A DNA stretch of 64,000 bases from Gammaproteobacteria bacterium (GTDB taxonomy: Bacteria; Pseudomonadota; Gammaproteobacteria; SURF-13). Positions 7,222-58,653 of the stretch are shown piece by piece. Where the stretch lies: NCBI GenBank assembly GCA_016195665.1, contig JACPZD010000001.1:186001-250000 (forward strand), in the 5' to 3' direction. The position numbers and the translations under genes were made by a program. Positions within the stretch are counted from its first letter, which is position 1. Each line of letters starts with the position of its first letter. The notes under the pieces were generated by a model, which was given only the letters and a program-made list of their open reading frames with translations, was not told the DNA's origin and ran no database searches.

Positions 7222-7271
7222 AGCTCTGATTTAAGATTTAACGGAGGGAGATTAAGGGTAGTATGAGGACT

Positions 7272-7301
7272 TTGACAGGCTTTATAATCGGGGCATTATA
7301 G
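7272..7301 (+). promoter_or_regulatory. Candidate sigma-70 promoter for the DUF721 gene
   Basis: TTGACA (7272-7277), an 18-nt spacer and TTATAG (7296-7301) lie just upstream of the ATG at 7324. The -35 is perfect and the -10 is weak. It sits in the divergent region between secA (minus) and the DUF721 gene (plus). Confidence 0.4.
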
Positions 7302-7323
7302 CACTTTGCCAAGGCCTGGACTG

Positions 7324-7761: not shown

Positions 7762-7773
7762 ATTCGGCCCTAC
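7752..7773 (-). repeat. GTAG-type REP palindrome
   Basis: On the minus strand the sequence reads GTAGGGCCGAATTTATTCGGCC: a GTAG tetranucleotide followed by a perfect palindrome. This is the form of REP elements mobilised by RAYT transposases. It overlaps the 3' ends of the convergent DUF721 and lpxC genes. Related copies are at 12751-12772 and 12783-12804. Confidence 0.75.
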
Positions 7774-29648: not shown

Positions 29649-31022
29649 TCAAAGCCCATATTTTTTAAGCTTATAGTGCAAGGTACGCACCGAGATGCCG
29701 AGGGCGCCGGCGGCCTCTGTCTTATTTCCGCCCGTCGCTTCCATGGCGGCCTTGATGCGCTGGATTTCCAGGGTCGCAATCTCATTGCGGAAGCTGAGGG
29801 CGGCTTTATCCGAACTTGGCGCTGAACCGGTCGGCATCGCGGCGCGAGAACGGAATATCTCCGGGCTGGTGCCCAGGCCTTTGACGGTCAGCAACGGCCC
29901 CGCCGCTACCGCCACGGCCCGGTGTATCACCCATTTGAGCTCGCGGATATTGCCCGGCCAATTGTAACGTTGCAATGCGGACAGCGCCTCCGCTTCGATC
30001 TCCGTAATTTGCTTTAGATAGGCTCGATTCGCTTCGTCAATAAATAGCCGTACCAATAAAGGCAGGTCCTGTATTCGCTCCCGCAACGGCGGCAGTTCAA
30101 ACGATATGCCGTTGATGCGGAAAAAAAGATCGGCGCGGAAGCCGTTGGCGGGATTGCTCAGGTCTTTGTGCGTTGCCCCAATGAGGCGGAAACTGATGCG
30201 CCGCTCCCTTGCGTCTCCCACGCGAAAGTAGGCGCCGGATTCCAATAGGCGCAATAGCTTGGCTTGGACATTGTCCGATAATTCGGCGATTTCATCGAGG
30301 AACAGGGTGCCGCCCGCCGCCTTTTCGATCAAACCCTCCTTGTTCGCGACGGCGCCCGAGAAGGATCCTTTGACGTGGCCGAACAGCTCGCTCTCAACCA
30401 AGTCCTGCGGCAAGGCAGCGCAATTAATGGCCACCAGTTCGCCGTTTTGTTCGGACATGGTGTGTATCCATTGCGCCAAGCGTTCTTTCCCCGTTCCCGT
30501 TTCTCCCGTGATGAGAACGGGGATGTTCAAGGGGGCGATCAAAGGCACGTGCTCCATAATATACTTCATGGCGCCCAGCGGCGAGGCATTAAAAACGGCC
30601 GCGGCCTGCGAGCCGATTTGGCGTTGCAATGACCTTACCTGCTGATGCAATTGACGGTTTTCCAGCAAAACGTTCAGCTCTTGCTTTAGCTTGGGGATAT
30701 TGACCGGTTTGGTGAAGTAATCGGCCGCGCCCTGCTTGAGCGCGGCAATCGCGTTTTCCACCGTTGCGTGCGCGGTTAGCATCACGATGATCGTATTAGG
30801 CTGGAGAACCTTGAACTCGTGCACATAGTCAACCCCGTTGCCTTCCGGCAGACGCACATCCAGCAAAAGCACCGCGACGGTCTGTTCGGCCAGTATCTGT
30901 CGCGCGGCAACCAAGGAATTGGCAATGGTAACGTCGAACATGTCGTCCAACGCTATCGCCAGCGATTCGGCGAAGTTGTCTTCATCGTCGACGATGAGTG
31001 CGCGGAAGTTGGGTTGAATCAT
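29649..31022 (-). CDS. NtrC-family sigma-54-dependent response regulator
   Basis: This protein (457 aa from the ATG at 31022, overlapping the kinase stop as ATGA) has a receiver domain with the phosphoacceptor Asp in VLLLDVRLPEGNG, an AAA+ domain (Walker A GETGTGKE, Walker B GGTLFLDEIAEL) and a Fis-type helix-turn-helix (GGNKTEAAGALGISVRTLHY). The sigma-54 contact loop reads GSFSGA instead of GAFTGA. It probably activates the sigma-54 promoter at 32394 when phosphorylated by the adjacent kinase. The specific signal is unknown. Confidence 0.92.
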   Translation of the reverse strand: MIQPNFRALIVDDEDNFAESLAIALDDMFDVTIANSLVAARQILAEQTVAVLLLDVRLPEGNGVDYVHEFKVLQPNTIIVMLTAHATVENAIAALKQGAADYFTKPVNIPKLKQELNVLLENRQLHQQVRSLQRQIGSQAAAVFNASPLGAMKYIMEHVPLIAPLNIPVLITGETGTGKERLAQWIHTMSEQNGELVAINCAALPQDLVESELFGHVKGSFSGAVANKEGLIEKAAGGTLFLDEIAELSDNVQAKLLRLLESGAYFRVGDARERRISFRLIGATHKDLSNPANGFRADLFFRINGISFELPPLRERIQDLPLLVRLFIDEANRAYLKQITEIEAEALSALQRYNWPGNIRELKWVIHRAVAVAAGPLLTVKGLGTSPEIFRSRAAMPTGSAPSSDKAALSFRNEIATLEIQRIKAAMEATGGNKTEAAGALGISVRTLHYKLKKYGL

Positions 31023-32200
31023 CGGTTGATCTTTACGGAATGGGCCGGCAGCCATATACGGAAATTCGCGCCTTTGTCCGGACGGTGCAATTCCAACTCG
31101 CCGCCGTGCGCGCGTACTATCTTATCAGCAAGATATAAGCCCAGTCCCGCCCCTTTTGATCGTGTGGTGACGAACGGCGACAACAATGACTTCAAATCGA
31201 GGTCGGTAGGGAATCCTTTTCCGTCATCCCGATACTCGATTAAGGCTCGTTCCTCTCCCTCGGAGTTATGCAAAGTCACATGCACTTCACTGGCCCCCGC
31301 CTCGGCGCTGTTACTGAGTAGGTTGGCGAATAATAGATCAAAATAAAATTTATCGCCGTAGCATTTTATGTCATCGGCGATGACGGTGAGTGCGTGGCGT
31401 TGCGTATTTTCATTGATTAAAGCCCTTAAATCCACCCATGACGAATAATCAATCTTTAGGTCTTTGCCGTATATTAACAAGTTATCCATGAGGCGCTGCA
31501 TGCGCTCAAGTTCTTGATAAGAGATTTGGATAAAGCGCTCAACGAAATGACGGTCGCCTATCCGCGTCGGCAGGCTCTGCACCAGATTGGATATGGTGGC
31601 CACCGGCGTACGCAGTTCATGTGACAATGTCGCCGTCATGTGGCCGAGCAGGGCGAAGGCCTCTTGTTCGTGCAGCGCCGTGGTAAGGCGCCGACGTTCC
31701 TCATCATGGAGTAGGCGCTCCAGCCGGGTCTGCTCGCTTTTTGTCACATACGCCAACAGGGCAAGAAATATCAGGAACGAAGCCAGCACTCCGTCCACGA
31801 TTTCACGCATATCCACGACCGTGGTTTCCTTGTTCACGTAGTTGGGATTGATGAAGAGTTGCAATTTGCCGCTTTCCATTTTAATTGACCAAAGCGGTGC
31901 GTCTTGGAGTTCCGTCAGCTTGGCGGAAGCCGGGGGCACGGCGATCACTTCCTCCGGCAGGACTTGCTCGACATAGCGGCTGACGAATTGCGCGACTTTC
32001 TCAGGGGCGGCGTCTCTATGGGTGGCGCGATACACGTCTGCGGTTCGTTGGATCTGGGTGCGGATGGTTTCGCGAATTTCATTTTTTTCCTGCATGTTAT
32101 CGATGCCGCTCTCAATCAGCACTACGATGATCCCAAGCACCAGGGAGATAACAAAGGAGATGGTGATTTTTGTGATATGTGAGAATAATTTCCGAGGCAT
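31019..32200 (-). CDS. Membrane sensor histidine kinase
   Basis: This 393-aa kinase has two membrane segments (near residues 10-30 and 135-155) around a periplasmic sensor region of about 100 residues. Then come a dimerisation domain with the phospho-His in LSHELRTPVATI and an ATPase domain with NLLSNSAEAGAS, DDGKGFP and GAGLGLYLADKIV. It shares a 4-nt overlap with the response regulator and is divergent from the speD operon, so the pair is the likely local regulator. I do not recognise the sensor domain. Confidence 0.92.
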   Translation of the reverse strand: MPRKLFSHITKITISFVISLVLGIIVVLIESGIDNMQEKNEIRETIRTQIQRTADVYRATHRDAAPEKVAQFVSRYVEQVLPEEVIAVPPASAKLTELQDAPLWSIKMESGKLQLFINPNYVNKETTVVDMREIVDGVLASFLIFLALLAYVTKSEQTRLERLLHDEERRRLTTALHEQEAFALLGHMTATLSHELRTPVATISNLVQSLPTRIGDRHFVERFIQISYQELERMQRLMDNLLIYGKDLKIDYSSWVDLRALINENTQRHALTVIADDIKCYGDKFYFDLLFANLLSNSAEAGASEVHVTLHNSEGEERALIEYRDDGKGFPTDLDLKSLLSPFVTTRSKGAGLGLYLADKIVRAHGGELELHRPDKGANFRIWLPAHSVKINR

Positions 32201-32470: not shown

Positions 32471-32953
32471 ATGTATCAAATTGCACAGGCGAACATTAAG
32501 GCGCCGGTCCTAGGCAATCAACTCATTGTCGATTTTTACGATTGTGATTGCGCTTATTTCGACGATTTGGACTGGATAGAGAACGTCATGATTGAGGCCG
32601 CGCATTACGCGCGCGCCTCCATCGTTGACGTCGTGTTCCATAAATTCAATCCCATCGGGATATCCGGGGTGGTGGTTATCGCCGAGTCGCATCTTGCCAT
32701 CCACACCTGGCCGGAACATCGCTATGCGGCAATCGATGTCTTTACTTGCGGCGATACGTTGGACAGTGAAGCGGCGGTTGCCTATCTCGCCACGCAATTC
32801 CGCTGTCGTAAGCGCAGTGTGACAAAGGTGGGTCGCGGAGAATCCGGCGAATTGGCGGGGGGTTTTCCGGGTGACAAAGCCAGCATCTCTACACATGAGC
32901 GATTGGTTGCCGTTGAAACAATCGCCTCCGAGAGAACATCAAGCGAGGATTGA
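32471..32953 (+). CDS. speD: Pyruvoyl S-adenosylmethionine decarboxylase-like protein (SpeD)
   Basis: The 160-aa product follows an excellent GGAGGAG site. The self-cleavage motif GISGVVVIAESHLAIHTWPE holds the Glu-Ser pair whose Ser becomes the pyruvoyl cofactor, and DVFTCG follows. This is the short bacterial (Bacillus/Thermotoga-like) class; the last about 40 residues after RCRKRSVTKV are a variable tail. The expected reaction makes decarboxylated AdoMet, the aminopropyl donor for the next gene. Some family members have switched to Arg or Orn decarboxylation, but the adjacent aminopropyltransferases favour AdoMet. It is the first gene of the sigma-54 operon. Confidence 0.9.
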   Translation: MYQIAQANIKAPVLGNQLIVDFYDCDCAYFDDLDWIENVMIEAAHYARASIVDVVFHKFNPIGISGVVVIAESHLAIHTWPEHRYAAIDVFTCGDTLDSEAAVAYLATQFRCRKRSVTKVGRGESGELAGGFPGDKASISTHERLVAVETIASERTSSED

Positions 32954-32956
32954 CGC

Positions 32957-34018
32957 ATGTCATTATCTTTATCTATGCCGCGTAATCTTGTTGGGGACAC
33001 GAGTCGGAACGAGTCGAGCATCAAGCGCATAACGCTGTTTTCGGGAAAGGAAAAAGTGAATCTTTATGAGGTTCCTGATGCGCTGGATCTCCATGTCTAT
33101 AAAGTAAAGCGGCTGGTGTACCAGCGCCAGACAGCTTATCAGCACATCACTATTGCGGATACTTATAACTACGGAAGAGTTCTGATGCTGGATGGCGCCG
33201 TGCAAAGCGCTCAAAGCGACGAGGCCCTGTACCATGAGTTGCTGGTGCAACCGGCGATGCTGCGCCATCCCGATCCCAAGGACGTGCTTATCATCGGCGG
33301 AGGCGAGGGGGCATCATTGCGCGAAGTGCTTGCCCATCGCAGCGTCCGCACCGCTACCATGGTGGATATCGACGGCGAGGTGGTGGAGTCGTGCCGTAAA
33401 TACCTGCCTACATGGCATTGCGGGGCGTTCGACGACGCGCGGGCGCGTGTTTTTTACGCGGACGGACGCAAATTTATAGAGGAACATGATGGTAAATACG
33501 ACGTTGTCATCATCGATGTTGTAGATATGCTGGATAATGGTCCGGCACAAGCTTTGTATACGCAACAATTCTACAAATTCTTGCGCCGTCGTTTGCACCC
33601 GGGTTTCATCGTGGCGATCCAAGGGCTGGAATTCACTTTCAGCGACTCGCGGGAACATGCCGCGTTGGTGCGCACCTTGCGCACGGTATTTCCTTATGTG
33701 CACAGTTACAGTGCGACGATTCCGTCGTTTTTATCCAGTTGGGGGTTCGTCGTCGCCTGTGACGACTATCCGCCGAATAGCTGGCGGGCCAATGAGATCG
33801 ACTCGGCTATTTCCCGGAAATTAGCTCCGGACCGGCTTGTTCACCTGGACGGCGCCTATCTGGAGAAGACTTTTACCCATTGCCGGTTGACGCGCCAACT
33901 GTTGGCGATGCCCGGTCCTATTTTAGAGGATGAGATAAAACTCGAGTTTAATGTTAAGCAAGATATTACGGATGAAATGGCTGGCGCCACTAAGGCTCAG
34001 TTTAAACCTTTGCGCTGA
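32957..34018 (+). CDS. Aminopropyltransferase, spermidine/thermospermine synthase family
   Basis: This 353-aa enzyme starts 3 bp after speD and should use its decarboxylated AdoMet. It has the N-terminal strand region YQHITIADTYNYGRVLMLDG, substrate residues QSDEALYHELLVQPAM, the nucleotide loop IIGGGEGASLREVL and VDIDGEVVE. The catalytic region reads YDVVIIDVVDMLDNGPAQ, followed by LYTQQFY. DVVDM replaces the usual DSTDP of spermidine synthase, and the GP...LYT pattern is more like thermospermine-type enzymes. It carries about 25 extra residues at each end. The amine acceptor cannot be told from sequence. Confidence 0.88.
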   Translation: MSLSLSMPRNLVGDTSRNESSIKRITLFSGKEKVNLYEVPDALDLHVYKVKRLVYQRQTAYQHITIADTYNYGRVLMLDGAVQSAQSDEALYHELLVQPAMLRHPDPKDVLIIGGGEGASLREVLAHRSVRTATMVDIDGEVVESCRKYLPTWHCGAFDDARARVFYADGRKFIEEHDGKYDVVIIDVVDMLDNGPAQALYTQQFYKFLRRRLHPGFIVAIQGLEFTFSDSREHAALVRTLRTVFPYVHSYSATIPSFLSSWGFVVACDDYPPNSWRANEIDSAISRKLAPDRLVHLDGAYLEKTFTHCRLTRQLLAMPGPILEDEIKLEFNVKQDITDEMAGATKAQFKPLR

Positions 34019-34117
34019 CGGGGTCGGCGGCGGGATTTTCTGCGGTAATTGAAATTCAACGCAAGTCGTAACGCGAGAGATGTGCCGCCGGCCGTTTGGG
34101 TGGAGGCGGGTATAGAT

Positions 34118-34279
34118 ATGATGAAGAGCATGTTGTTTTTTCTTTTTTCAGCAGCTTCCAGCGATAGTGACAACATGAGTTGTCTCCGGGAGGAAATAAA
34201 CGGTTTGTGCCGACGCCGCGGACCCGCAGACGTCAAGTCTTCGCGCGAGCCATTCGGGAAAGAAGGTTATCGTCCGTGA
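34118..34279 (+). CDS. Small ORF coupled to the downstream acyltransferase
   Basis: A 53-codon frame starts MMKSMLFFLFSAASSDSDNM and stops in a GTGA overlap with the next gene (TGA 34277-34279, GTG 34276-34278). GGAGG lies 11 nt upstream of the first ATG. The N-terminus has a short hydrophobic run and the C-terminus is basic and polar. It resembles nothing I know. The stop-start overlap suggests it is translated, either as a real small protein or as a leader that couples ribosomes to the acyltransferase. Confidence 0.4.
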   Translation: MMKSMLFFLFSAASSDSDNMSCLREEINGLCRRRGPADVKSSREPFGKEGYRP

Positions 34280-34866
34280 AAAGATCCACGAGCAAAAAAG
34301 GTGGCATGGCGCTTTCCGGGGCTGAGAAGCTTATGGTCAGAGGCGCTCCAAAGACGGGTAAATCTTTGGACTTTACGCCTTTGCAGAAGAAGGATTTCCC
34401 GGTCTTTTATCGGCAGTTCTTGCAGTTGCGCCCGGAGCCGATTTTTATCGACATCTACGAGCCGACGCCGTTTCCGAGCTTGGCCAAGTTCAAGACCTAT
34501 TTTGCAGTCGACAAGAGACCCCTGTGGGTGTTGGGTCCGCCGGAGTCCCCGGTCGCTTATTTCGCCCTGCATGATTTTCAAGCCGAGCACGATTTGGCGA
34601 ATGTGGAGTTCGTTTTCTTTGCGGGATATCCCGCCCCTGGTTCCAAGGAAGCACGCGCCTTCTGGAAATTCTTTCGCAAATGCCTCGCGGATTACGGCCT
34701 GACCCGTATCCAGAGTTTCGTCCTTCCCTCCAGCGCGGACAAGATCCGTTTGATCGAATCCTTAGGATTTCGTAAGGAAGGCGTACTGCGCGAGCATTTT
34801 TTCCATGACGGCAAGTTGCACGATATCGTTGCCTACGCCTGGATGGCGGAGGAACGTCATGCCTAA
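34276..34866 (+). CDS. GNAT-family acyltransferase 1
   Basis: A GTG at 34276 with AGAAGG 9 nt upstream gives 196 aa; an ATG at 34306 is an alternative. The C-terminal half fits the GNAT fold: YFALHDFQAEHDLANVEFVF (strand 4), then LTRIQSFVLPSSADKIRLIE with SLGFRKEGVLREHFFHDGK, which looks like RimJ/RimL-type N-acetyltransferases. The CoA-binding loop is not typical, so the donor could be acetyl-CoA, a longer acyl-CoA or acyl-ACP. Clustered with polyamine and ACP genes, it may acylate an amine. It overlaps GNAT 2 by 8 nt. Confidence 0.75.
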   Translation: MKRSTSKKGGMALSGAEKLMVRGAPKTGKSLDFTPLQKKDFPVFYRQFLQLRPEPIFIDIYEPTPFPSLAKFKTYFAVDKRPLWVLGPPESPVAYFALHDFQAEHDLANVEFVFFAGYPAPGSKEARAFWKFFRKCLADYGLTRIQSFVLPSSADKIRLIESLGFRKEGVLREHFFHDGKLHDIVAYAWMAEERHA

Positions 34867-35416
34867 GCTTGGCCTGGAAAAGATCATCGTGCGGCGTATC
34901 GTTCCTGCCGATCGCCCTATCCTGCGCCGCTGGCTGAAGGATCCCGGCGTGCGGGCGGCCATCGAGGATGAGACCATCGTGCTGTCGAAGATGGAGGAAA
35001 CCCTGGCGTTATTCGAGTCCAGTGATCCCTTTAGCGACAGCAACCTGGGCCTCATCGTCGAGGTGGCGGGGCGGCCGATCGCCCTGATCCACTTCGTGTG
35101 GATCAACTGGGTCAGCCGCAACGCGGAGGTGATCGTGTTCGTGGGGCCAGAGGATTTGCGGCGCTCGCTTGCCGCCGCCGTGGTCGTGGAAAAGATTGGC
35201 CATGCCGCCTTCCGGGTGCTGAATCTGCACAAGGTCTACGCCTTCGTTTATGGGGCCAACGAAGCGGCGCTTTCGGTATTCCGCAAGTTGACGGAAGAGG
35301 AGGCGTGCCTGCGTTCATACGTCAAATCCTCCGAAGGCTATACGGATTTTCATTTTTTCGGCTTGTTGGCATCGGAATATTTTGCAGCCATGAAAAAGCT
35401 GAAAGGACGGGATTGA
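34859..35416 (+). CDS. GNAT-family acyltransferase 2
   Basis: The ATG at 34859 (GGAGGAAC just upstream) gives 185 aa. It begins KIIVRRIVPADRPILRRWL, typical of RimJ/RimL-type GNAT proteins, and later reads LNLHKVYAFVYGANEAALSV with FRKLTEEE, the acyl-CoA-site helix region. It overlaps both neighbours (8 nt with GNAT 1, 1 nt with the ABC exporter), so it belongs to the same translational unit. It is clearly different from GNAT 1 in sequence, so the two probably act on different positions or substrates. Confidence 0.78.
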   Translation: MPKLGLEKIIVRRIVPADRPILRRWLKDPGVRAAIEDETIVLSKMEETLALFESSDPFSDSNLGLIVEVAGRPIALIHFVWINWVSRNAEVIVFVGPEDLRRSLAAAVVVEKIGHAAFRVLNLHKVYAFVYGANEAALSVFRKLTEEEACLRSYVKSSEGYTDFHFFGLLASEYFAAMKKLKGRD

Positions 35417-37236
35417 TGCGCGGCGACGGCCGTCCGCGGTTGCGTCCGCTTTTACACATCGCCAAGGAATTCTACCTGACTCCGCGGGTCATGGCGTTTT
35501 CAATGGCGCTCATCCTGCTGATGGTCGCGGCCGACGTCGCCCTGCCGTGGATGGCGAAGATCGCGATCGATTTGATTACCGAGGGCCGCAACTCCGCGGC
35601 AGTGAATGCCGTTTTCCGGGAAGTGGTATGGATGGGCGGCATGATTCTCGGCGTGGCGATCGCTCAGTATCTGACCAGCGCCCTGCTGACCCGCTTCTAC
35701 ACTCGCGTCGTCTATCGCGGCACGGCGCGACTGCGGGAACAACTCTACACCCGCATGCAGGCCCAGTCGCTGAACTTCCTGGCCGAGCGGCAAATCGGCG
35801 AGATGTTGACGCATCTGATCACCGATATCCAAAACCTTCAGGATTCGACTCTCGACTTAATATCGGAAGTGCCCTTCGACGTATGCATCTTGCTTGGACT
35901 CACGATAGCGATGTTCATTCTCAATCCGACCTTAGCGCTGATTGTACTGCTGTTCCTGGTGGCATCGGTGCTGTTCGTTTATCGGATCGGGCGCCGCGGT
36001 TGGAAGGCACAGTCCGGCGCGATGCAGGGTACGGCGGATATGACGGCGCGAATGCAGGAAGGATTCGCCGCCGCCCGGACCATTGCCACTTTCGACGCCG
36101 CTCGGGGAGAGCAGCAACGCGTCCAAGAGGCCTCGCAGCGCTATGCCTTTCATATGGAAAATACCGGCAAGGTGCGCGCGGTGATTACGCCCTTTCTGAG
36201 TTTCGCGGAATACGCGGGCGTTATTACGGTCTTGGTTGTCGGCGGTTGGGAGATGCTGCACGGTTCCCTGACGGTGGGCGGCCTCGTGGCGTTTATGGCG
36301 TATATGCAGTTGTCGGCAGATCCGGTATCGCGCTTTTCCCGCGTGATTCTGCGCCTGCAGAATGCCAGCGTTTCGGCCGCGCGTCTTCATGATCTTCTCG
36401 CGGAGACGCACGATGCGCAAGACAAGCCCGATGCGCTGGTGCCCACCGATCTCACGGGGGCGGTGGCGGTCGCGAATGTCCACTTTCGCTATCCCACCTC
36501 CGCCCAGCCGGCATTGAGCGGGCTCGACTTCACAGTGGCGGCCGGGGAAAAGATCGCCGTCGTCGGCCGAAACGCCTCCGGCAAGAGTACCTTTCTCGAT
36601 TTGCTCTTGCGGATTCAAGAGCCGGAGCAAGGCCGCATCTCGGTTGACGGCATCGATGTCCGCGACATCCGCTTGGCCACGTGGCGCTCTTTCATCGGCG
36701 TCGTGCCGCAAGACATCCTGCTCTTGAATCGCAGTGTGGCCGAGAACATCGCGTTGGGCTCTGCCTTTCCCCCGGAACGTATCCGCGAGGCGGCCGCCGC
36801 GGCGGGCCTCAGGGAGTTCATCAACGGTCTGCCGCGGGGATACGAGACGGTGGTGGGGGAGAGGGGCGTGTTTCTGTCCGGCGGTGAACGGCAGCGCATC
36901 GCCGTCGCGAGACTGTTCCTGCGTGCAGCCCGAGTTATCCTTTTGGACGAGCCAACCTCTGCCCTGGACGTCGCTTATGAAAGCGATCTTTTGCCCGCGC
37001 TGCGGCGTTTGTGCGCGGGTCGAACCACGTTCATCGTATCGCATCGCCTCACCGTGCTGACCGAGGTGGACAAGGTCTTGCTGCTGGATGCCGGCCGGCA
37101 ATTGGCTTTCGACAGTCCGGCCCATGTGTGGCGCGATTTCCCGGCCTACCGCGATTTATTTCCCGCGTCGTGGGGGACGCCGCACCATGAGCCTCATGGA
37201 GGGAACAATGTTTTATCTTTATCATCGCCCCTCTAG
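35416..37236 (+). CDS. ABC exporter, fused membrane and ATPase domains
   Basis: This 606-aa half-transporter starts in a TGATG overlap with GNAT 2. It has six membrane segments between residues about 25 and 310 (e.g. FSMALILLMVAADVALPWM) and an ATPase domain with Walker A VVGRNASGKSTF, signature LSGGERQRIAVARL, Walker B VILLDEPTSALD and the switch His in FIVSHRLTVL. It is of the MsbA/bacteriocin or lipid-exporter type and should work as a homodimer in the inner membrane. In context it would flip or export the cluster product or an acylated intermediate. Confidence 0.93.
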   Translation: MRGDGRPRLRPLLHIAKEFYLTPRVMAFSMALILLMVAADVALPWMAKIAIDLITEGRNSAAVNAVFREVVWMGGMILGVAIAQYLTSALLTRFYTRVVYRGTARLREQLYTRMQAQSLNFLAERQIGEMLTHLITDIQNLQDSTLDLISEVPFDVCILLGLTIAMFILNPTLALIVLLFLVASVLFVYRIGRRGWKAQSGAMQGTADMTARMQEGFAAARTIATFDAARGEQQRVQEASQRYAFHMENTGKVRAVITPFLSFAEYAGVITVLVVGGWEMLHGSLTVGGLVAFMAYMQLSADPVSRFSRVILRLQNASVSAARLHDLLAETHDAQDKPDALVPTDLTGAVAVANVHFRYPTSAQPALSGLDFTVAAGEKIAVVGRNASGKSTFLDLLLRIQEPEQGRISVDGIDVRDIRLATWRSFIGVVPQDILLLNRSVAENIALGSAFPPERIREAAAAAGLREFINGLPRGYETVVGERGVFLSGGERQRIAVARLFLRAARVILLDEPTSALDVAYESDLLPALRRLCAGRTTFIVSHRLTVLTEVDKVLLLDAGRQLAFDSPAHVWRDFPAYRDLFPASWGTPHHEPHGGNNVLSLSSPL

Positions 37237-37273
37237 GAGCGTTATTTCTTTGAACGATACTGCGGAGGGATAA
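37208..37273 (+). CDS. 21-residue small ORF with ribosome site
   Basis: ATG at 37208 is preceded by GGAGGG with a 4-nt gap and encodes MFYLYHRPSRSVISLNDTAE plus Gly, then TAA. It overlaps the end of the ABC exporter in another frame and stops 2 bp before the ATG of the next gene. It may be a tiny peptide, perhaps a substrate or leader, or only a coupling device for the downstream gene. There is no homology evidence. Confidence 0.35.
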   Translation: MFYLYHRPSRSVISLNDTAEG

Positions 37274-37275
37274 TT

Positions 37276-38145
37276 ATGACGAAGAAGGCGAAGGTTGCGA
37301 CCAGCAAGGGCAGGAAAGCTCTTTCCCCAAAGGGGCTTTGGAATAAGAAGAGCCGTTTTCAGACTATTGAGCTCGTTGAGGAACGCGGAGGCCTCCTGCT
37401 GAAGTTGAACGGTTGGCCCCAGGTTCACTCCAAAGAGGAAGCAAAGTACCACGAGAACGTGGCCACCATGCCGATGATGTTGGCCCAGAAGGTGGATCGC
37501 TGCGTCATACTCGGGGGTGGCGACGGGCTTGCGGCGCGGAACATCCTGCGCTTTCGCGACGTCAAGAAACTCACCCAGGTGGAACTCGATCCAGGGGTGA
37601 TCAAGCTTTGTTCCGAGCAACCGGACTTTGTCCGCATGAACGAGGATGTTTTCCATAATCCGCGTTTGGAGTTGATCGTCGGCGACGCCATCGAATGGTT
37701 TCTGAAAGCCGAGGGCCCCTTCGATGTCATCATCAACGACATCGAAGTGATGTTTACCAAGCAGCCGCAAAAGATGACATTGGAACGCCACTTCCAATTG
37801 TTCGAGGCCATGGCGGACAAGCTCGCACCCGGCGGGGTGGCGGTGGTCACCGTCCCCGATGACTTCGATGACAGCATCCTGCAAGGATTTTTCGAGATCT
37901 ATGGGGATTACCTGCCCTACGAGACACGGCAGGCGTTCATGAAATCCAAAAATGTGTTCGCGCGCGCGCGGGTTTTGCTGGCGACCTTATTTCCCTACGT
38001 AATGCAATGGACGATACGCTTCCCCGTTTTGGGCCCGCACACTACTTTCTATCTGAGCCATCGTCCGATGACCCGCCTGCGCCGGTCGCCCAATCCGCCG
38101 GCGAAGTACATCAAGGACGACATGATTACACGGGTTCTGAAATGA
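37276..38145 (+). CDS. Divergent spermidine-synthase-like protein
   Basis: This 289-aa protein has the spermidine synthase/methyltransferase fold: SKEEAKYHENVATMPMML, the loop CVILGGGDGLAARNILRF and the acidic VELDPGVIKL. At the catalytic position it reads FDVIINDIEVMFTKQP, so the usual second Asp and the Pro are missing. The C-terminal third (YVMQWTIRFPVLGPHTTFYL onward) and the lysine-rich N-terminus are also unusual. It may bind decarboxylated or normal AdoMet and act on a nonstandard acceptor. A GGAGGG site precedes the ATG. Confidence 0.75.
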   Translation: MTKKAKVATSKGRKALSPKGLWNKKSRFQTIELVEERGGLLLKLNGWPQVHSKEEAKYHENVATMPMMLAQKVDRCVILGGGDGLAARNILRFRDVKKLTQVELDPGVIKLCSEQPDFVRMNEDVFHNPRLELIVGDAIEWFLKAEGPFDVIINDIEVMFTKQPQKMTLERHFQLFEAMADKLAPGGVAVVTVPDDFDDSILQGFFEIYGDYLPYETRQAFMKSKNVFARARVLLATLFPYVMQWTIRFPVLGPHTTFYLSHRPMTRLRRSPNPPAKYIKDDMITRVLK

Positions 38146-38193: not shown

Positions 38194-39414
38194 ATGCGCG
38201 TAGTCGTCACTGGAATGGGGATCGTATCGCCGATCGGCATCGGGACGGACAATTTCTGGAAAGCCGCTATTGCCGGCGTCAGCGGGATTCGCCGTATCGA
38301 GAGTTTCGATGCCTCGCAACAGCGTTCGCAGATTGCTGGTCAAGTCGCCGGCTTCGATCCCGCCGCGCATCTCTCGGCGAAATGTATCGAACAAACCGAT
38401 CGCTTCGCCCAATTGGCGTTGGTGGCCGCGAATCAGGCGGTCAACGATGCGGGCGGACTCGGCGTTTATGCGCCGCATCGTTTGGCCGTGAGCCTCGGCT
38501 CGGGAATGGGCGGCTATGGCACCTTTGAATCCTCTGCCGCGCGTTATTTTCAGAATAAATCCCATCCGCCGCTTACCGTACCCAAGGCCATGTCGAATGC
38601 CGCAAGCGCTTGGATTGCGATCGAGCATCAATGTAAGGGACCCAATCTGACATTCAGCACGGCTTGTTCGTCCGGCGGGCATGGGATCGGCACGGGTCTA
38701 CAGCTCTTGCGGACGGGACAGGCGGACGCGGTTATTGCGGGCGGCGCTGAAGCATGCGTACTGCCGCTGACCATGGCGGGGTTTAACGCCTTGCATGCTT
38801 TATCGATCGCTTATAATGATGATCCGGCGCGAGCGTCACGGCCTTTTTCCAAAGGACGCGACGGTTTTGTCATGGCGGAAGGCGCCGGCATATTGGTATT
38901 GGAAAGGGAAGAGGAGGCGAAGCGTAGGGGCGCGCCCATCTATGCAGTGCTCGCTGGCTACGGTAGCTCATGCGATGCTACCCATGTTGTAGCTCCCGAC
39001 CTGGAAGGGCAAACGGCGGCGATGCGGGCGGCTGTCGCCGACGCCGCGCTAGAGAGAGACGCTATCGACTATATAAATGCTCACGCAACATCCACGCCGC
39101 TGGGGGATGTTATCGAAACACGCGCCATTAAGCATTTTTTCGGATCGCACGCGCAGGACATCGCCATCAGCGCCACTAAATCTCTGATTGGGCACACCAT
39201 CGGCGCCGCGGCGGCCATAGGCAGCATCGCCACGATCATGACCCTGCGTAGCGGTATGATTCACCCGACCATCAATTTTGAGGAAGCTGATGCCGAATGC
39301 GATCTCGATTACACGCCTAATAAGGCGCGTGAATGCAAGGTACGGGTTGGCCTAAGTAATGCCTTCGGTTTCGGCGGCAATAACGTAAGCCTGCTTTTTA
39401 CGACCATAGAGTAA
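38194..39414 (+). CDS. Beta-ketoacyl-ACP synthase (FabF-like)
   Basis: This 406-aa condensing enzyme has an intact Cys-His-His site with the structural Lys: Cys in TFSTACSSGGHG, first His in NAHATSTPLGD (Ala in place of the usual Gly) and Lys/His in SATKSLIGHTIGAAA. GFGGNN closes the C-terminus. It should extend an acyl chain on the acyl carrier protein encoded 19 bp downstream. It stands alone, away from any fab cluster, within the sigma-54 operon, which suggests a dedicated secondary role rather than bulk fatty acid synthesis. Confidence 0.93.
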   Translation: MRVVVTGMGIVSPIGIGTDNFWKAAIAGVSGIRRIESFDASQQRSQIAGQVAGFDPAAHLSAKCIEQTDRFAQLALVAANQAVNDAGGLGVYAPHRLAVSLGSGMGGYGTFESSAARYFQNKSHPPLTVPKAMSNAASAWIAIEHQCKGPNLTFSTACSSGGHGIGTGLQLLRTGQADAVIAGGAEACVLPLTMAGFNALHALSIAYNDDPARASRPFSKGRDGFVMAEGAGILVLEREEEAKRRGAPIYAVLAGYGSSCDATHVVAPDLEGQTAAMRAAVADAALERDAIDYINAHATSTPLGDVIETRAIKHFFGSHAQDIAISATKSLIGHTIGAAAAIGSIATIMTLRSGMIHPTINFEEADAECDLDYTPNKARECKVRVGLSNAFGFGGNNVSLLFTTIE

Positions 39415-39433: not shown

Positions 39434-39688
39434 ATGGAGACAGCGGATATCGAATCGAAAGTTATAGCTTTTATCACCGAGAAAGTTCATCTGGAGAAGC
39501 CTGTCGAAATTAAAGCGACAACGACCTTTAAAGATCTCAGCCTGGATTCGTTGGATGTGGTCCAGCTTTTATTCGAAGCAGAAGATGCCTTCGGAATTTC
39601 TTTCGATATGGAGAAAGCCACCGACATCACCTGCATAGGCGACATCGCAGCCTATATCGCCAAGCACCAGGCGCGTGCCGCGACGTAA
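39434..39688 (+). CDS. Acyl carrier protein
   Basis: This 84-aa carrier has the phosphopantetheine site LSLDSLDVVQLLFEAEDAF, with Ser in DSLD. The four-helix ACP pattern is clear and the protein is acidic. It directly follows the condensing enzyme, so the two should form a dedicated acyl-building pair. It is distinct in sequence from a typical AcpP (KVHLEKPVEIKATTTFKDL before the site). No 4'-phosphopantetheinyl transferase, ketoreductase or dehydratase gene is in the cluster, so these would come from general metabolism. Confidence 0.93.
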   Translation: METADIESKVIAFITEKVHLEKPVEIKATTTFKDLSLDSLDVVQLLFEAEDAFGISFDMEKATDITCIGDIAAYIAKHQARAAT

Positions 39689-39858
39689 GGTATTGTGTTT
39701 ATATGGGTGGATGCCGACGTTTCGCCCGCCGCATGAAAGAAGATTTCCTACCGATGGGTGTCGTAAAATAATGTGATCATTCGTAGACTCTCCTCAGCTG
39801 GCTGGTTTGGTCGCAGTCGCCCATTTAACCGAAGCGCCGATGACCGCACCCTTTGCGG

Positions 39859-39932
39859 GACGGTACCGTCGGGTAACTATAAGTATACGCATTGCTACAA
39901 AGGTCCAAGGCGTGATGTGTTTTCATCACGCC
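39859..39932. promoter_or_regulatory. Palindrome and hairpin upstream of the efflux genes
   Basis: GACGGTACCGTC (39859-39870) is a perfect 12-bp palindrome. GGCGTGATG (39909-39917) and CATCACGCC (39924-39932) make a perfect 9-bp hairpin with a TGTTTT loop and no following T-run. Both lie in the 292-bp gap between the ACP gene and the efflux genes. They could be an operator and an RNA structure giving the efflux genes separate control. Nothing else is seen in the gap. Confidence 0.35.
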
Positions 39933-39980
39933 GATCGATTCCATCGCTTGAGAGTGATGGTCGACGGCATGATATTTTCA

Positions 39981-41381
39981 ATGCGTAAATTAATACTACA
40001 TTGCAGGCGTGCTCCGCTGATTTGTATATCCGCCATCCTTCTATTGGCAGGTTGCGCGGGTGTTTCTCCGCCGCCGCTGCCGGTGGGCGGCGCGCCCGCA
40101 GCTTGGCGTAACGCAGGGTCTATGGCTGCACCAGGGCCGGCCCCTGACTTTAAGCATTGGTGGAGGGTGTTCGGTGATGCGAAAATCGACCTCCTGGTCA
40201 AGCGCGCGATTGAGAATAATCTAGACTTGCGTCAAGCCATAGCGCGGTTCAGGGCCGCCCGTGCCCTGACGGGGCGATCGCAAGCGGAATTACTCCCAAG
40301 TCTCAGCGTACGTACTTATTCCCTGCCGGACCCCAGCGGCACAACCAGCTATTTTCAATCCGGTTTCGACGCCGAGTGGGAACTCGGCCTGTTTGGGCGC
40401 AGAGACGGCACGCTTCGAATGGCCGATGCGGACGTCGGTATTGCCGCGGCCTCTGTTCAGGCGGCGCAGGTGTCGGTGGTGGCGGAGGTAGTGCGCAGTT
40501 ATATGGAGTTACGCGCGGCGCAGGAGCGTGAAACGCTGCTCGCGAGGCTTGTTGAAGTAGAAACACGACATTTGGCGTTAATACGTTCGCGGTTTCGCCT
40601 TAATCTCGCTTCGGAGGCCGAGGTTGGCCAGGCCGAAGCAAGGCTTGCTCAGGCCGAAGCGGCACTTGCGGAGCCGCATGCGGCGGCAGCCCGCAGCGCC
40701 CAACAGATAGCACTGCTGTTAGGGGAGAACCATCCGGATGCCGGGTTGCTCGCGGTTGTGCCGCGGCCTACTTTAGGTACCTTGCGTATCGGCGTCGTGC
40801 CGGCTGAGATGTTGCGTACCCGGCCCGATATTCGGAAAATCGAACAGGAGGTGCTCAAGGCCGCCGCTGAATTGGGGGTGGCGCGCGCCGATCTCTATCC
40901 GCGTTTAGTCTTGGCCGGCGGATTGACGTTCTCCACACGTCTCGGCGGCAATTCTCTGGGCACGACCCATGGAGTTATTTCCGCTGGACCGATCATCGAC
41001 ATTCCTCTGTTCGATTGGGGTATGCGCCGGGCCGTGGTCAATGCGCGTGATGCCGCGCTTTCGGCGACGCTGCTGGCCTACCGTCAGGCCGTGCTGGAAG
41101 GAGTGGCCGAGGTGGAAACGGTTTTGGCGGCGCTGGAACATTTGCGTGAGCAGGTGGAAAGCATGGACAAGGCGGTCGCCTCCCTGGAGCGCAGCGCCCG
41201 GGCCACTCAGGTGCTTGCCCGCAACGGACTGGCCGATGGCTTTCCCTGCGTTGCAGCGGACAAGGCGCTGTTGGATGCGCGCCTTGAACGCGCCCAGGCC
41301 GAAGAAGCGCGATCATTGGCATTCATCGCTCTTTACAAGGCATTGGGTGGAGCGCCGCCGCTGGGGGTTCAGGACGACTGA
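39981..41381 (+). CDS. Outer-membrane efflux lipoprotein (NodT/OprM type)
   Basis: This is a TolC-like outer-membrane channel of 466 aa from the ATG at 39981. The signal peptide ends in a lipobox (ISAILLLAGCAG), so the mature protein is a lipoprotein. Two OEP repeats follow, with WWRVFGDAKIDLLVKRAIE in the first and RTRPDIRKIEQEVLKAAAEL in the second, and long coiled-coil helices. It starts a transport set and overlaps the permease gene by one base (TGATG). It would carry the product across the outer membrane. Confidence 0.92.
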   Translation: MRKLILHCRRAPLICISAILLLAGCAGVSPPPLPVGGAPAAWRNAGSMAAPGPAPDFKHWWRVFGDAKIDLLVKRAIENNLDLRQAIARFRAARALTGRSQAELLPSLSVRTYSLPDPSGTTSYFQSGFDAEWELGLFGRRDGTLRMADADVGIAAASVQAAQVSVVAEVVRSYMELRAAQERETLLARLVEVETRHLALIRSRFRLNLASEAEVGQAEARLAQAEAALAEPHAAAARSAQQIALLLGENHPDAGLLAVVPRPTLGTLRIGVVPAEMLRTRPDIRKIEQEVLKAAAELGVARADLYPRLVLAGGLTFSTRLGGNSLGTTHGVISAGPIIDIPLFDWGMRRAVVNARDAALSATLLAYRQAVLEGVAEVETVLAALEHLREQVESMDKAVASLERSARATQVLARNGLADGFPCVAADKALLDARLERAQAEEARSLAFIALYKALGGAPPLGVQDD

Positions 41382-42520
41382 TGGTGGCCTTGGCCCGCAA
41401 GACGCTGGTGTATGAGTGGCGGCGATTTCTGCCGGCCATGTTGGCGGTGGCATTCTCCGGCTTGCTGCTGTTGATGCAATTCGCACTGGTCTTGGGTATC
41501 TTCGGTAGCGCCAGTGTCTATATTCGCAAATCTGCCGGCGACCTGTGGGTCGGCTATCCGGGAACCCAAACTATCGATCTTGGGCGTCCGATTCCATCCG
41601 ACACAGAGATGAAGCTCTTGATGGATCCCGCTGCGGAACGGGTCGAGCCGTTTCAATGGCTGAGCGGAGACTGGCGCGGACCTAAGGACCGGGGCGGAAT
41701 TTCGGTGCTTATCTCCGGCATCAATCCGCATTCTGACGGATTGATGTTCGCCGACGTGATGACGCCGGAATCGCGGCAACGCTTGCTTGAACCGGACAGT
41801 GTGATTGTCGATATCACCGATCTGCCCAAGCTCAATTTGGGTGTAGGGGGAAGGGCGACAATCAACGGCCATCGCGTGCGCATTGTCGGTGTTGCCTCCG
41901 GCCTGCGCGCGCTAGGCGGAATCAATGTGGTGACTTCACTTACCACAGCCCGACATCTCAACAGCGATGCGCAGGAGCCCGATTGGGTTGCTTATTACCT
42001 TGTCAAGTTACGCGATCCCGCTGCGGCAGAGATGGTAAAATCGCGGCTGATGCCGCGTGATACGGGCACGCCCCGGCAGTATGCCGTATGGACCGGCGGG
42101 GAGTTCGCTCGCCGCACGGTATTCTACTGGATGTTCGAAACCGGCGCCGGCCTGGGTGTAGTGTTTCTGGCCGTGATAGTATTTTTGGCGGGAGTAGTCA
42201 TTACCAGTCAGACGCTCATGGCGGCGGTCGCCGGGACGCTGCGCGAGTATGCCACCTTGCAAGCGCTAGGGGTTAGTTTCCACGCCTTGCGTAAGGTGGT
42301 GTTGGAGCAGGCCGCATGGATAGGGGCGTGCGGGTTATCGATCAGCGTAGTGGTGGGCGGTCTGGTGTTGTTGCTGGCGCATCGCCTGGACGTGCCGATG
42401 CAACTCGGTCCTGTGACCGCCGCCGCATGTGGCGCCTTGCTCATGAGCATTGCCATGTTTTCAGGCGTCATGGCGATGCGCACGCTGCGCCGCGCCGATC
42501 CGTCAATCTTGCTGAGATAA
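41381..42520 (+). CDS. FtsX/MacB-type ABC permease
   Basis: This 379-aa permease has an N-terminal membrane helix (MLAVAFSGLLLLMQFALVLG), a large periplasmic domain and three C-terminal helices from about residue 255, the FtsX arrangement. It lacks a fused ATPase; the separate ATPase is encoded 6 bp downstream. Mechanotransmission permeases of this type drive MacAB-like efflux or lipoprotein transport. With the adjacent adaptor and channel it should form a tripartite pump. Confidence 0.9.
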   Translation: MVALARKTLVYEWRRFLPAMLAVAFSGLLLLMQFALVLGIFGSASVYIRKSAGDLWVGYPGTQTIDLGRPIPSDTEMKLLMDPAAERVEPFQWLSGDWRGPKDRGGISVLISGINPHSDGLMFADVMTPESRQRLLEPDSVIVDITDLPKLNLGVGGRATINGHRVRIVGVASGLRALGGINVVTSLTTARHLNSDAQEPDWVAYYLVKLRDPAAAEMVKSRLMPRDTGTPRQYAVWTGGEFARRTVFYWMFETGAGLGVVFLAVIVFLAGVVITSQTLMAAVAGTLREYATLQALGVSFHALRKVVLEQAAWIGACGLSISVVVGGLVLLLAHRLDVPMQLGPVTAAACGALLMSIAMFSGVMAMRTLRRADPSILLR

Positions 42521-42526
42521 TACACC

Positions 42527-43243
42527 GTGCCCGCCGCACTACTTCAGGCCAGAGATTTAAATAAATCCTTCCTTTCCGGCCGTATTCGCACCCCCGTGTT
42601 GCGCGACTTGTCGCTCGCCATCGAGCCCGGTGAGCTTACCTTGGTCTCGGGGCCTTCAGGTTGCGGGAAAAGCACCTTGCTAGCCATTCTAAGCGGTTTA
42701 TTGCGGCCGGATTCGGGCCGCGTCGAGGCGTTGGGCGAGGACCTGTGGCAGTTAAGAAACAATGGTCTCGAGCTTTTTCGTTTACAGCATACCGGCTTCG
42801 TATTTCAGGGGTTTAATTTATTTCCGGCGCTGACTGCGCTAGAGCAGGTGGCTTTGCCGCTGAGTTATCTCGGTATGTCCCCGGCGCGCGCCGGCGCGCG
42901 CGCCCTCGTGGCGTTGGAAGAGGTCGGACTTGCCGGCCGTGTGAACTTTCGACCGGCGGAACTCTCCGGGGGTGAGAAGCAACGGGTAGCGATTGCACGT
43001 GCGCTTGCCAAGGAACCGAGCCTTCTGTTTGCAGATGAACCGACCAGTGCCCTGGATGCGGCTAACGGCGCCATGGTCATCGATATTTTGCACCGTATTG
43101 CACACACTCACGCGGCCACCGTGTTGTGCGTCAGTCACGACCCAAGGTTGATCTCTCATGCTGATCGCGTGTTAACGATGGAGGACGGCAAAATTTTAAC
43201 CGACTTACGACCAAGCACGGCTTTTCAGGAAGCGTTGCCATGA
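42527..43243 (+). CDS. ABC transporter ATPase (MacB/LolD type)
   Basis: This 238-aa ATPase starts with a GTG at 42527. Walker A is SGPSGCGKSTLL, the signature is LSGGEKQRVAIARAL, Walker B is LLFADEPTSALD and the switch His is in VLCVSHDPRL. It belongs to the MacB/LolD/FtsE subgroup that pairs with FtsX-type permeases. It overlaps the adaptor gene as ATGA. Confidence 0.94.
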   Translation: MPAALLQARDLNKSFLSGRIRTPVLRDLSLAIEPGELTLVSGPSGCGKSTLLAILSGLLRPDSGRVEALGEDLWQLRNNGLELFRLQHTGFVFQGFNLFPALTALEQVALPLSYLGMSPARAGARALVALEEVGLAGRVNFRPAELSGGEKQRVAIARALAKEPSLLFADEPTSALDAANGAMVIDILHRIAHTHAATVLCVSHDPRLISHADRVLTMEDGKILTDLRPSTAFQEALP

Positions 43244-44139
43244 GCATGGGTATTGTGCGCTGCATTCTGTTTTGCATTCCATTGGGGATAGGCCTCACGG
43301 GATGTTCTTCCGATAACCAAGAGCAGACCGGGGCTAATGTGCCGCCTGTTCCGTATGCCGCCATGGCGAATGGGTGGGTGGACGTGGAAGGTGGATTGGT
43401 GCACATCGGGGCATTGCGCGACGGCGTGGTTCAGGAGGTGCGTGTGCAAGAGGGTGACGCGGTGAGCCGTGATCAAGTGCTGGCCATGCTGGACCCGCGT
43501 CAGGCTCGGATCAACGTGGCTCTGGTCGAGGCGGAATTGAAGCGACTAGCAGCGCAGGCACGTTTGCTCGAAGCCAAGTTATCCAAGGCGGAGCGCCATG
43601 CTGCGCGCATTGCGGCCGCCGTGGCGGAAAATGCCGCCAGCGTTGAATCAGAAGACGAAGCGCGGAGCGGGGTGGCAGAACTCAAAGCCGAGATTGCCGC
43701 AGCCGATGCCGCAACCGAAGCGGCCCGTCAACGCTTGCTGCAGGCGCGCTATGAGCTCGAATTGAACACTATTCGCGCGCCTTTCTCCGGGCTCATCGTC
43801 CGGCGTACGGTACAGGTCGGGCAGAGCCTCTCGATGCAGAATCCCAACGATCTCTTTCAGCTCCTGCCGGACCGCCCGCGCATTGTCCGGGCTGCGCTCA
43901 ACGAGGATTTCGTTGATCGAGTGCATCCCGGTATGAGCGCCGAAGTGGTGCCAGACAGCCAGGGCGATAAAATCTATAGCGCGCGAGTATTGCGCATCAG
44001 CGAAGTATTCGGTCCGAGCCGGCCAGTCGGTAATCCGGATACGCGCGCCGGTATGCGCGATGTTGAGAGTGTGTTGGAACTCCCGCCGGGTACGGCGCTA
44101 CGTATTGGCCAGCACGTACTGGTGCGCTTCAAGCCCTGA
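43240..44139 (+). CDS. Periplasmic adaptor lipoprotein (HlyD/MacA type)
   Basis: This 299-aa membrane-fusion protein has a lipobox signal (IPLGIGLTGCSS), a biotinyl-lipoyl-like half motif (GVVQEVRVQEGDAVSRDQVL), a coiled-coil hairpin (VEAELKRLAAQARLLEAKL) and the second half (IRAPFSGLIVRRTVQVGQSL). It would bridge the permease and the outer-membrane lipoprotein. It is the last gene of the cluster; an inverted repeat follows 65 bp downstream. Confidence 0.92.
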   Translation: MSMGIVRCILFCIPLGIGLTGCSSDNQEQTGANVPPVPYAAMANGWVDVEGGLVHIGALRDGVVQEVRVQEGDAVSRDQVLAMLDPRQARINVALVEAELKRLAAQARLLEAKLSKAERHAARIAAAVAENAASVESEDEARSGVAELKAEIAAADAATEAARQRLLQARYELELNTIRAPFSGLIVRRTVQVGQSLSMQNPNDLFQLLPDRPRIVRAALNEDFVDRVHPGMSAEVVPDSQGDKIYSARVLRISEVFGPSRPVGNPDTRAGMRDVESVLELPPGTALRIGQHVLVRFKP

Positions 44140-57411: not shown

Positions 57412-57441
57412 GCCTGTTAATGAAAATTAATGAAATAGTTG

Positions 57442-57469
57442 TTGACAGCGCTGCCTCATTTTGTACTAT
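57442..57469 (+). promoter_or_regulatory. Candidate sigma-70 promoter for the DUF2156 gene
   Basis: TTGACA (57442-57447), a 16-nt spacer and TACTAT (57464-57469) lie about 80 bp upstream of the ATG at 57550. This is a good match in an otherwise noncoding gap. Confidence 0.6.
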
Positions 57470-57549
57470 TAGCGCACTCAATGTACACGAGTGCCGCCCG
57501 CGGCAAAACCGCGGGGATCATTAACCCAACATCAAGGAGTCACTGGACG

Positions 57550-58653
57550 ATGCTGAATCAACTTGACGAACCTCCCGGTAGTCGCCCGCGCGATACCCGT
57601 TTGCGATGGAGTGAACCGAATTCCACGCCTGACAATGTGCTCACCCTCCATGTCAACACGGCCTTCCCCAACCGTTACCTCGCCATCGAAGGCCACAAGC
57701 TGTATCCCTTCACCACCGATATCAAACCGTTGTTCGAGACCTATCAGCGGCGCAGCCAAGTCCCGCTCTCCGATTACACCTTCGCCAACAACATCATCTG
57801 GCTGTCGCAGAAGAGCGGCTTTTATCAGATCATCGAAGACTGTTTTTGCCTGTTTTGCCTGACCGGCGACGGGCTCACCATGCCGCTGCCGCCTCTCGGC
57901 GCGCCCGAGCGTCAATACGCCGCGCTCGCCGCCTGCTTCGAGATCATGGACGGCTACAACGCCACACCCTATCTCGGTAAGGTCGAATTCGTATACCGTG
58001 ATTTTCTTCAGGTCATGCCGCTCCACCTCGAGGAAGACACCGTATTCCCGACCGTGAGCGGCGGCGCCTGGCTGGTGGAACGCAGCCTGCCCGATTACAT
58101 CTATTCGACCTCCGACCTGATTGGGCTCAAGGGCAACGCCTACAAGACCAAGCGCAGCGAGATCAATCAGTTCCGGCGTATCCACCCCGATCACCACATG
58201 GAGACCCTGGGCCCGCAGCACTGGGACGGCATCCGCGATCTGGTCAACACCTGGCTGCAGAATCGCCTGAAGTACCTGCCCCCGACGGACATCGCCAATT
58301 TTCTCTGCACCGCCGAACTGGAACGCACCGCCATCAACCGCGCGCTGGAGCATTACGACCCACTGCAACTGGAGGGCCTGTGCCTGTTCATCGGCGACCG
58401 GCTGGAGGGCTTCACCTTCGCCGAGCGCATCACGCCGGATGTGGCGAGTGTGCTGGTGGAAAAAACCAACTTCATGATCCCCGGCGCCGCGCAGTATCTG
58501 TTCCGCGAACTGGCCAAGACCTACACCGACTGCACCTACATCAACGTGGGCGACGATCTCGGTCTGGAAAACCTGCGCAAGGTCAAGATGAGCTACCGGC
58601 CCGCCTTGTTCGGCGAGAAGTTCACCTTAACCCGCCACTGTGCTCCACGCTGA
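57550..58653 (+). CDS. DUF2156 (LPG synthase C-terminal-like) acyltransferase
   Basis: This 367-aa cytoplasmic protein starts at 57550, with AAGGAG 10 nt upstream. It has the tandem GNAT-like fold of DUF2156, the domain that in MprF transfers lysyl groups to phosphatidylglycerol (features NIIWLSQKSGFYQIIEDCFC and INVGDDLGLENLRKVKMSYR). No membrane helices are seen, so it is a free-standing version with unknown acceptor. Its stop overlaps the GNAT gene by 14 nt, suggesting joint function. Confidence 0.8.
   Translation: MLNQLDEPPGSRPRDTRLRWSEPNSTPDNVLTLHVNTAFPNRYLAIEGHKLYPFTTDIKPLFETYQRRSQVPLSDYTFANNIIWLSQKSGFYQIIEDCFCLFCLTGDGLTMPLPPLGAPERQYAALAACFEIMDGYNATPYLGKVEFVYRDFLQVMPLHLEEDTVFPTVSGGAWLVERSLPDYIYSTSDLIGLKGNAYKTKRSEINQFRRIHPDHHMETLGPQHWDGIRDLVNTWLQNRLKYLPPTDIANFLCTAELERTAINRALEHYDPLQLEGLCLFIGDRLEGFTFAERITPDVASVLVEKTNFMIPGAAQYLFRELAKTYTDCTYINVGDDLGLENLRKVKMSYRPALFGEKFTLTRHCAPR

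Follow-up and report, generated by a model that had tools for sequence, protein, structure and literature searches.

A putative polyamine operon with two aminopropyltransferase homologs

The DNA analyzed here, called the window, is a stretch of 64,000 nucleotides from a gammaproteobacterial genome of the SURF-13 lineage (NCBI GenBank assembly GCA_016195665.1, contig JACPZD010000001.1, positions 186,001 to 250,000 of the forward strand). It holds a putative polyamine operon with two aminopropyltransferase homologs, SpeE1 and SpeE2, which the initial annotation had described as enzymes with altered active sites encoded in one operon. Both open frames (32957-34018, 353 amino acids; 37276-38145, 289 amino acids) match PF01564 above the gathering score (SpeE1 with 150.8 bits, SpeE2 with 75.8 bits against a gathering score of 22.9) and lie on one strand in a tight gene array. 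The two genes are, however, not adjacent: a pair of GNAT genes and the gene of an ABC exporter separate them. The gene order, all on the plus strand, is speD, speE1, gnat1, gnat2, abc, speE2, beta-ketoacyl-ACP synthase (KS) and acyl carrier protein (ACP). Neighboring genes from speD to ACP overlap or are separated by at most 49 bp, except for 258 bp between speE1 and gnat1; the gaps amount to 40 bp before speE2, 49 bp between speE2 and KS and 20 bp between KS and ACP. The features of the locus are:

29649-31055, minus: NtrC-type response regulator with receiver, sigma-54 activator and Fis helix-turn-helix domains, divergent from the operon (PF00072, PF00158, PF02954)
31019-32200, minus: sensor histidine kinase paired with the regulator, divergent (PF00512, PF02518)
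32471-32953, plus: SpeD, class 1b S-adenosylmethionine decarboxylase, predicted supplier of decarboxylated S-adenosylmethionine (dcAdoMet) (TIGR03330 equivalog, 141.6 bits versus cut-off 75.65)
32957-34018, plus: SpeE1, thermospermine-synthase-like aminopropyltransferase with intact DxxD and GGGEG (PF01564, alignment, tree)
34276-34866, plus: GNAT1, N-acyltransferase-like, start GTG 34276 or ATG 34306 (similarity to syntenic GNATs)
34859-35416, plus: GNAT2, RimL/SpeG-like N-acetyltransferase (PF13302, syntenic relatives)
35416-37236, plus: MsbA-type ABC exporter with fused membrane and ATPase domains (PF00664 and PF00005)
37276-38145, plus: SpeE2, divergent aminopropyltransferase homolog (PF01564, alignments, predicted fold)
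38194-39414, plus: FabF-type KS (TIGR03150, 501.9 bits versus cut-off 493.75)
39434-39688, plus: ACP with a DSLD phosphopantetheine site (PF00550)
39807-44139, plus: NodT-type outer-membrane channel, MacB-like permease, ATPase and HlyD-type adaptor (Pfam and NCBIfam matches)

The SpeD translation contains the motifs ESHLAIHTWPE and FTCG, and its start was set at ATG 32471 in preference to an upstream TTG at 32393. The KS retains the catalytic Cys-His-His residues in TACSS, HAT and GHT motifs. It is an extra copy with 46% identity to the other FabF of the genome on contig C29; the ACP is likewise additional, and another ACP-sized gene adjoins that FabF copy. Assignment of the KS to a specialized KS family was rejected, and it looks like a plain FabF. 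The channel, permease, ATPase and adaptor downstream of the ACP possibly form the outer part of the export route of the operon. Promoter and terminator scans of the locus gave counts no higher than in shuffled sequence. The GC content of speD to gnat1 (32471-34866) and of the ACP gene (39434-39688) is 0.48-0.53 compared with 0.59-0.66 in neighboring genes, a difference that would fit horizontal acquisition.

SpeE1 resembles an intact thermospermine-type enzyme

The initial annotation correctly read DVVDM in place of DSTDP in SpeE1 (YDVVIIDVVDMLDNGPAQALYT), but the altered active site deduced from it is not borne out. DVVDM retains both aspartates of the DxxD motif, and the sole change is the replacement of Pro by Met. 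Alignments place D187, D190, Y92 to E94 (YHE), the acceptor Gln Q222, Y251 and W262 at the catalytic positions, and the nucleotide loop IIGGGEGAS fits the thermospermine synthase motif hhhhGGG(D/E)G(G/A) with Glu. The nearest relatives (62-53% identity, three lineages) carry D[VI]VD[MNL]LDNGPAQxLYT, with DVVDN in Neoroseomonas marina (62%), DVVDL in a betaproteobacterial metagenome-assembled genome (MAG; 58%) and DIVDM in a Melainabacteria MAG (53%). Since these relatives show the same pattern, the change of Pro is a normal feature of the clade, and we discarded the view that DVVDM reflects loss of the active site. All catalytic residues of SpeE1 are present, suggesting that it is an ordinary and probably active enzyme of the thermospermine-type clade.

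A scan with the SpeE1 alignment over contigs from a collection of 85,000 species supplied the informative loci (L-numbers), and in the resulting tree SpeE1 clusters with L069, L070, L071 and L090, next with L082, among GGGEG-bearing thermospermine-synthase-like enzymes; LDNGPAQxLYT is common to its nearest relatives. The top PDB matches are the Thermus triamine/agmatine aminopropyltransferases 3anx/1uir (E about 1e-67). SpeE1 shares GGGEG with these and with the bacterial thermospermine synthases (Li et al. 2024; PMC11107197) and differs from both by Met for Pro after the second Asp and by N- and C-terminal extensions. GGGEG usually marks thermospermine synthases, but spermidine and aminopropylagmatine synthases share the clade (PMC11107197), and the motif would be no proof of thermospermine as the product. 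The proposal that one of the two enzymes makes an unusual polyamine thus seems reasonable for SpeE1, albeit with an intact and not an altered active site.

The closest relatives of SpeE1, at L069 (9884-10981), L070 (9902-10978) and L090 (9956-10948), share DxVD[NLM]LDNGPAQxLYT. At L070 and L090 the following gene encodes a protein of about 270-280 amino acids with ANDRL[ST]EYS and no Pfam match, which we take to be possibly RMD1/DUF155-like. At L069 a two-component pair lies near the SpeE1 relative. L070, from a betaproteobacterial MAG, also holds a second aminopropyltransferase gene (6724-7869; 39% identity to SpeE1), which overlaps a speD and precedes the SpeE1 relative by 2 kb on its upstream side.

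A recurrent five-gene module

The genes speE1-gnat1-gnat2-abc, with speD beside speE1, keep their order and share a strand not just in the window but also in two unrelated MAGs, L072 (Planctomycetota) and L082. speD is divergent in L072, while all five genes are co-directional in L082. Gene by gene, identity is 34-50% between the window and either locus and 44-66% between L072 and L082; for the exporter it is 50% and 48%, respectively. A response regulator lies near the module in both MAGs. This recurring gene order is the strongest evidence that the module genes act together.

GNAT2 has its top NCBIfam match, below the cut-off, to spermidine N1-acetyltransferase, and its matches to SpeG are likewise weak. 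GNAT1 has no Pfam match of its own and is recognized by its identity to the syntenic GNATs of L072 (39%) and L082 (36%), the former being itself a sub-threshold GNAT match; the predicted model of GNAT1 (predicted local distance difference test, pLDDT, 44.8) is too poor for use. A GNAT2-profile search of 266 genomes of the class and 114 genomes around the Planctomycetota MAG found no further module. Our literature search returned no description of a speD-speE-GNAT-GNAT-ABC module, which hence appears undescribed in the literature searched, although its parts are individually known. It represents a candidate pathway to make, cap and export a polyamine.

SpeE2, KS and ACP are absent from the syntenic loci in L072 and L082. 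The window might accordingly contain two neighboring but unlinked operons, one being the polyamine module from speD to abc and the other a fatty-acyl set of SpeE2, KS, ACP and efflux genes, and the occurrence of the module on its own in both MAGs fits this arrangement. We consider it unlikely, however: all genes share one strand, the gaps are short (40, 49 and 20 bp), terminator-like sites do not exceed chance, and an aminopropyltransferase homolog needs the dcAdoMet that SpeD makes.

SpeE2 keeps its donor site and loses its acceptor anchor

SpeE2 carries the motifs GGGDGLAAR and FDVIINDIEVMF. As first annotated, it keeps GGGDG and has lost the second catalytic Asp. Alignments show the residues of the dcAdoMet donor site to be present (Q29, Q49, Y58, D83 in GGGDG, E103 and D137). 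The catalytic base D155, equivalent to human D173, is kept in a column that is Asp in 132 of 135 homologs. The position of the second DxxD acid (human D176) is V158, in a column with Asp in 109, Glu in 20 and Val in a single homolog, SpeE2 itself. Alignments with relatives further place T192 at the acceptor-pocket Gln after strand 5, a column placed differently in the larger alignment of 135 homologs, and W245 at the acceptor Tyr. The gatekeeping loop is devoid of the PDP and KLYT pattern.

Published work on the human and yeast enzymes gives these differences a functional meaning. Human Asp104 (yeast Asp98, matched by alignment position) holds the aminopropyl group and Asp173 deprotonates the acceptor amine. 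The distal end of the diamine is fixed by Asp176, and the attacking amine is oriented by Tyr79 and Tyr241 (PMC10146546, PMC12812037). SpeE2 retains counterparts of Asp104 (D83), Asp173 (D155) and Tyr79 (Y58) as well as the adenosine and ribose contacts Q29, E103 and D137, whereas Asp176, Tyr241 and the conserved Gln are replaced by V158, W245 and T192. The loss is thus limited to the acceptor half of the active site. Because the donor site and the base are retained and the acceptor anchor is lost, SpeE2 would transfer the aminopropyl group onto something other than a standard diamine, and this pattern supports the earlier proposal of a nonstandard acceptor.

The alignment of the DxxD loop is uncertain, as one alignment inserts a five-residue gap there. 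None of the placements has Asp as the second acid; E157, however, lies one residue before this position and could stand in, like Asp577 in the C-terminal domain of METTL13 (METTL13-C). SpeE2 might then be an ordinary aminopropyltransferase that acts on a di- or polyamine. Twenty of the 135 homologs have Glu instead of Asp at the next column, and METTL13-C illustrates that a shifted acid can reach the same place. The additional loss of the acceptor-pocket Gln and Tyr and of PDP and KLYT in the gatekeeping loop makes this reading improbable.

SpeE2 is a divergent member of a known superfamily. Its closest similarity is to PRK03612-type enzymes, namely to their soluble domain (about 25-28% identity), which is also its neighbor in the tree, where SpeE2 forms a very long branch; it differs from them by the absence of the N-terminal membrane part, the second Asp, the Gln and the Tyr. 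Its scores are below the curated speE cut-offs, namely 86.6 versus 249.55 for TIGR00417 and 129.7 versus 472 for NF002956, the best NCBIfam match.

The predicted fold of SpeE2 and a methyltransferase alternative

An AlphaFold2 model of SpeE2, built from an alignment of the window protein and fetched loci, has a pLDDT of 83.5 and a predicted template modeling score of 0.84. Spermidine synthases and their close relatives make up all of the best Foldseek matches. In VIA-align, the comparison with aminopropyltransferases has a Z of about 28 (246 residues, 2.4 Å), and that with the first methyltransferase listed (guanidinoacetate methyltransferase) a Z of 16.5. The model comprises the full aminopropyltransferase fold including the N-terminal hairpin domain. 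A C-terminal third described earlier as unusual is predicted to be no new fold; what is distinctive is that strands 5 and 6 are joined by a longer helical stretch (lid, residues about 199-236). The gatekeeping loop (161-164) is poorly predicted.

The same fold occurs in METTL13-C, which methylates a protein N terminus, and SpeE2 might similarly be a methyltransferase on an aminopropyltransferase fold that modifies the amine of a polyamine or a protein. Both the sequence and the structure of METTL13-C most resemble those of spermidine synthase; Asp575 corresponds to D173, and Asp577 lies close to the D176 site (PMC6109062). SpeE2 shares this D-x-acid spacing of motif Post II (D155-I-E157 compared with Asp575-Val576-Asp577), and a profile of SpeE2 and its relatives reaches METTL13 (5wcj, E 1.9e-5). 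Unlike METTL13-C, SpeE2 has a dcAdoMet-type GGGDG, in which D83 would hold the aminopropyl amine. YHE and the N-terminal hairpin domain are retained as well. The donor site therefore seems to be of the type that uses dcAdoMet, and speD sits in the same operon. These features make methylation a quite unlikely activity for SpeE2, although it is a genuine alternative.

Searches for SpeE2 orthologs

No SpeE2 ortholog was found in about 750 genomes sampled from the order, class and phylum, where only ordinary aminopropyltransferases were retrieved (best E about 1e-25). Pattern scans over the contigs of 85,000 genomes gave no ortholog, single-protein scans of viral and genome contigs gave nothing, and searches of plasmids and phages, as well as of the L072 and L082 genomes, returned only ordinary aminopropyltransferases. 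A Microvirga plasmid match with 93% coverage was rejected as an ortholog, being an ordinary SpeE (DSTDP, YHE) beside speD.

Together with the very long branch and the unique loss of near-invariant acceptor residues, the lack of orthologs could indicate that SpeE2 is catalytically dead, whether it serves SpeE1 as partner or regulator or is a decaying gene. Several features contradict this idea. The frame is open with a normal GC content at third codon positions (0.73), all donor-site residues are kept, the fold is confidently predicted, and drift is not expected to spare half an active site. We regard a dead SpeE2 as unlikely, although it is an alternative to be taken seriously.

A proposed pathway

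We propose that the window contains a polyamine operon flanked by a two-component system, that its product is an exported, N-acylated polyamine of the thermospermine type and that SpeE2 aminopropylates a nonstandard acceptor. We assign this interpretation a probability of roughly 45%. SpeD would provide dcAdoMet, from which SpeE1 may form a thermospermine-type polyamine with spermidine or putrescine as acceptor. One or both GNATs, of which one is SpeG-like, might cap amines with acyl groups, and the MsbA-type exporter would carry the product out of the cytoplasm. SpeE2, KS and ACP would be three genes added to the module in this genome, with KS and ACP possibly working on the same product. SpeE2 has most likely preserved dcAdoMet binding and the role of D155 as base, with an acceptor that has no second amine at the usual place of the diamine.

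Several observations weigh against this interpretation. SpeE1 scores 215.8 bits with the speE equivalog TIGR00417, under the cut-off of 249.55. As to the presumed control by the neighboring two-component system, a pattern scan for sigma-54 promoters gave fewer matches than chance. As the trio is missing from both syntenic loci, the link of SpeE2, KS and ACP to the module comes from one genome. Moreover, no ortholog was found that would show conservation of V158, T192 and W245, which might instead be marks of a decaying gene.

The nearest characterized parallel appears to be PA4773-PA4774 (speD2-speE2) of Pseudomonas aeruginosa. PA4774 has been shown to be a thermospermine synthase (PMC11107197), and PA4773-PA4774 are needed for a polyamine at the cell surface, where it shields the outer membrane (PMC3572637, PMC11107197). 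As in the window, a class 1b speD is followed by a speE of the thermospermine synthase type, and a two-component system, pmrAB, is adjacent. The GNAT pair and ABC exporter of the window have no described counterparts there, and neither do its second aminopropyltransferase, KS and ACP. The regulator of the window is NtrC-type, unlike PmrA, which we take to be an OmpR-type regulator. A similar surface role of the window product may be considered by analogy.

What SpeE2 might modify is suggested by its neighbors. The initial annotation had named a thioester-bound acyl chain as a conceivable acceptor without citing the KS and ACP genes directly downstream, which now provide circumstantial support; the use of an ACP-bound substrate by SpeE2 stays conjecture. 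A carrier-bound acceptor is conceivable because the ACP adjoins: SpeE2 could act on an amine or other nucleophile of an acyl chain built by the KS and held by the ACP, leading to an exported polyamine-lipid hybrid. We rate this as quite unlikely. The N-terminal tail of SpeE2 (residues 1-28) has a charge of +10 and the ACP of -8, at most a weak hint of pairing; basic tails and acidic ACPs are common. The literature search found no cluster combining an aminopropyltransferase with an ACP or ketosynthase and no matching acyl-polyamine cluster. If true, a carrier-bound acceptor would mean a new way to join dcAdoMet chemistry with carrier-protein biosynthesis. Aminopropyltransferases are known almost only as makers of free polyamines, and SpeE2 offers a concrete, inexpensive way to test whether they have expanded into the chemistry of lipid-like compounds or natural products.

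Further features of the genome

The genome (2.38 Mb) contains four PF01564 matches, two of which are SpeE1 and SpeE2. The third is a spermidine-synthase-like gene on contig C22. The fourth (L004, contig C1, 327483-327854) lies inside an open frame of 916 codons whose N-terminus appears to be a membrane part; the encoded protein resembles a transporter fused to spermidine synthase and does not have the usual DxxD motif. Within the window, an IS200-like (Y1) transposase with a C-terminal helix-turn-helix is encoded at 61783-62745. About 13 kb downstream of the operon, a PF09924 protein (phosphatidylglycerol lysyltransferase C-terminal domain, 57439-58653) may represent a further gene for cationic surface modification.

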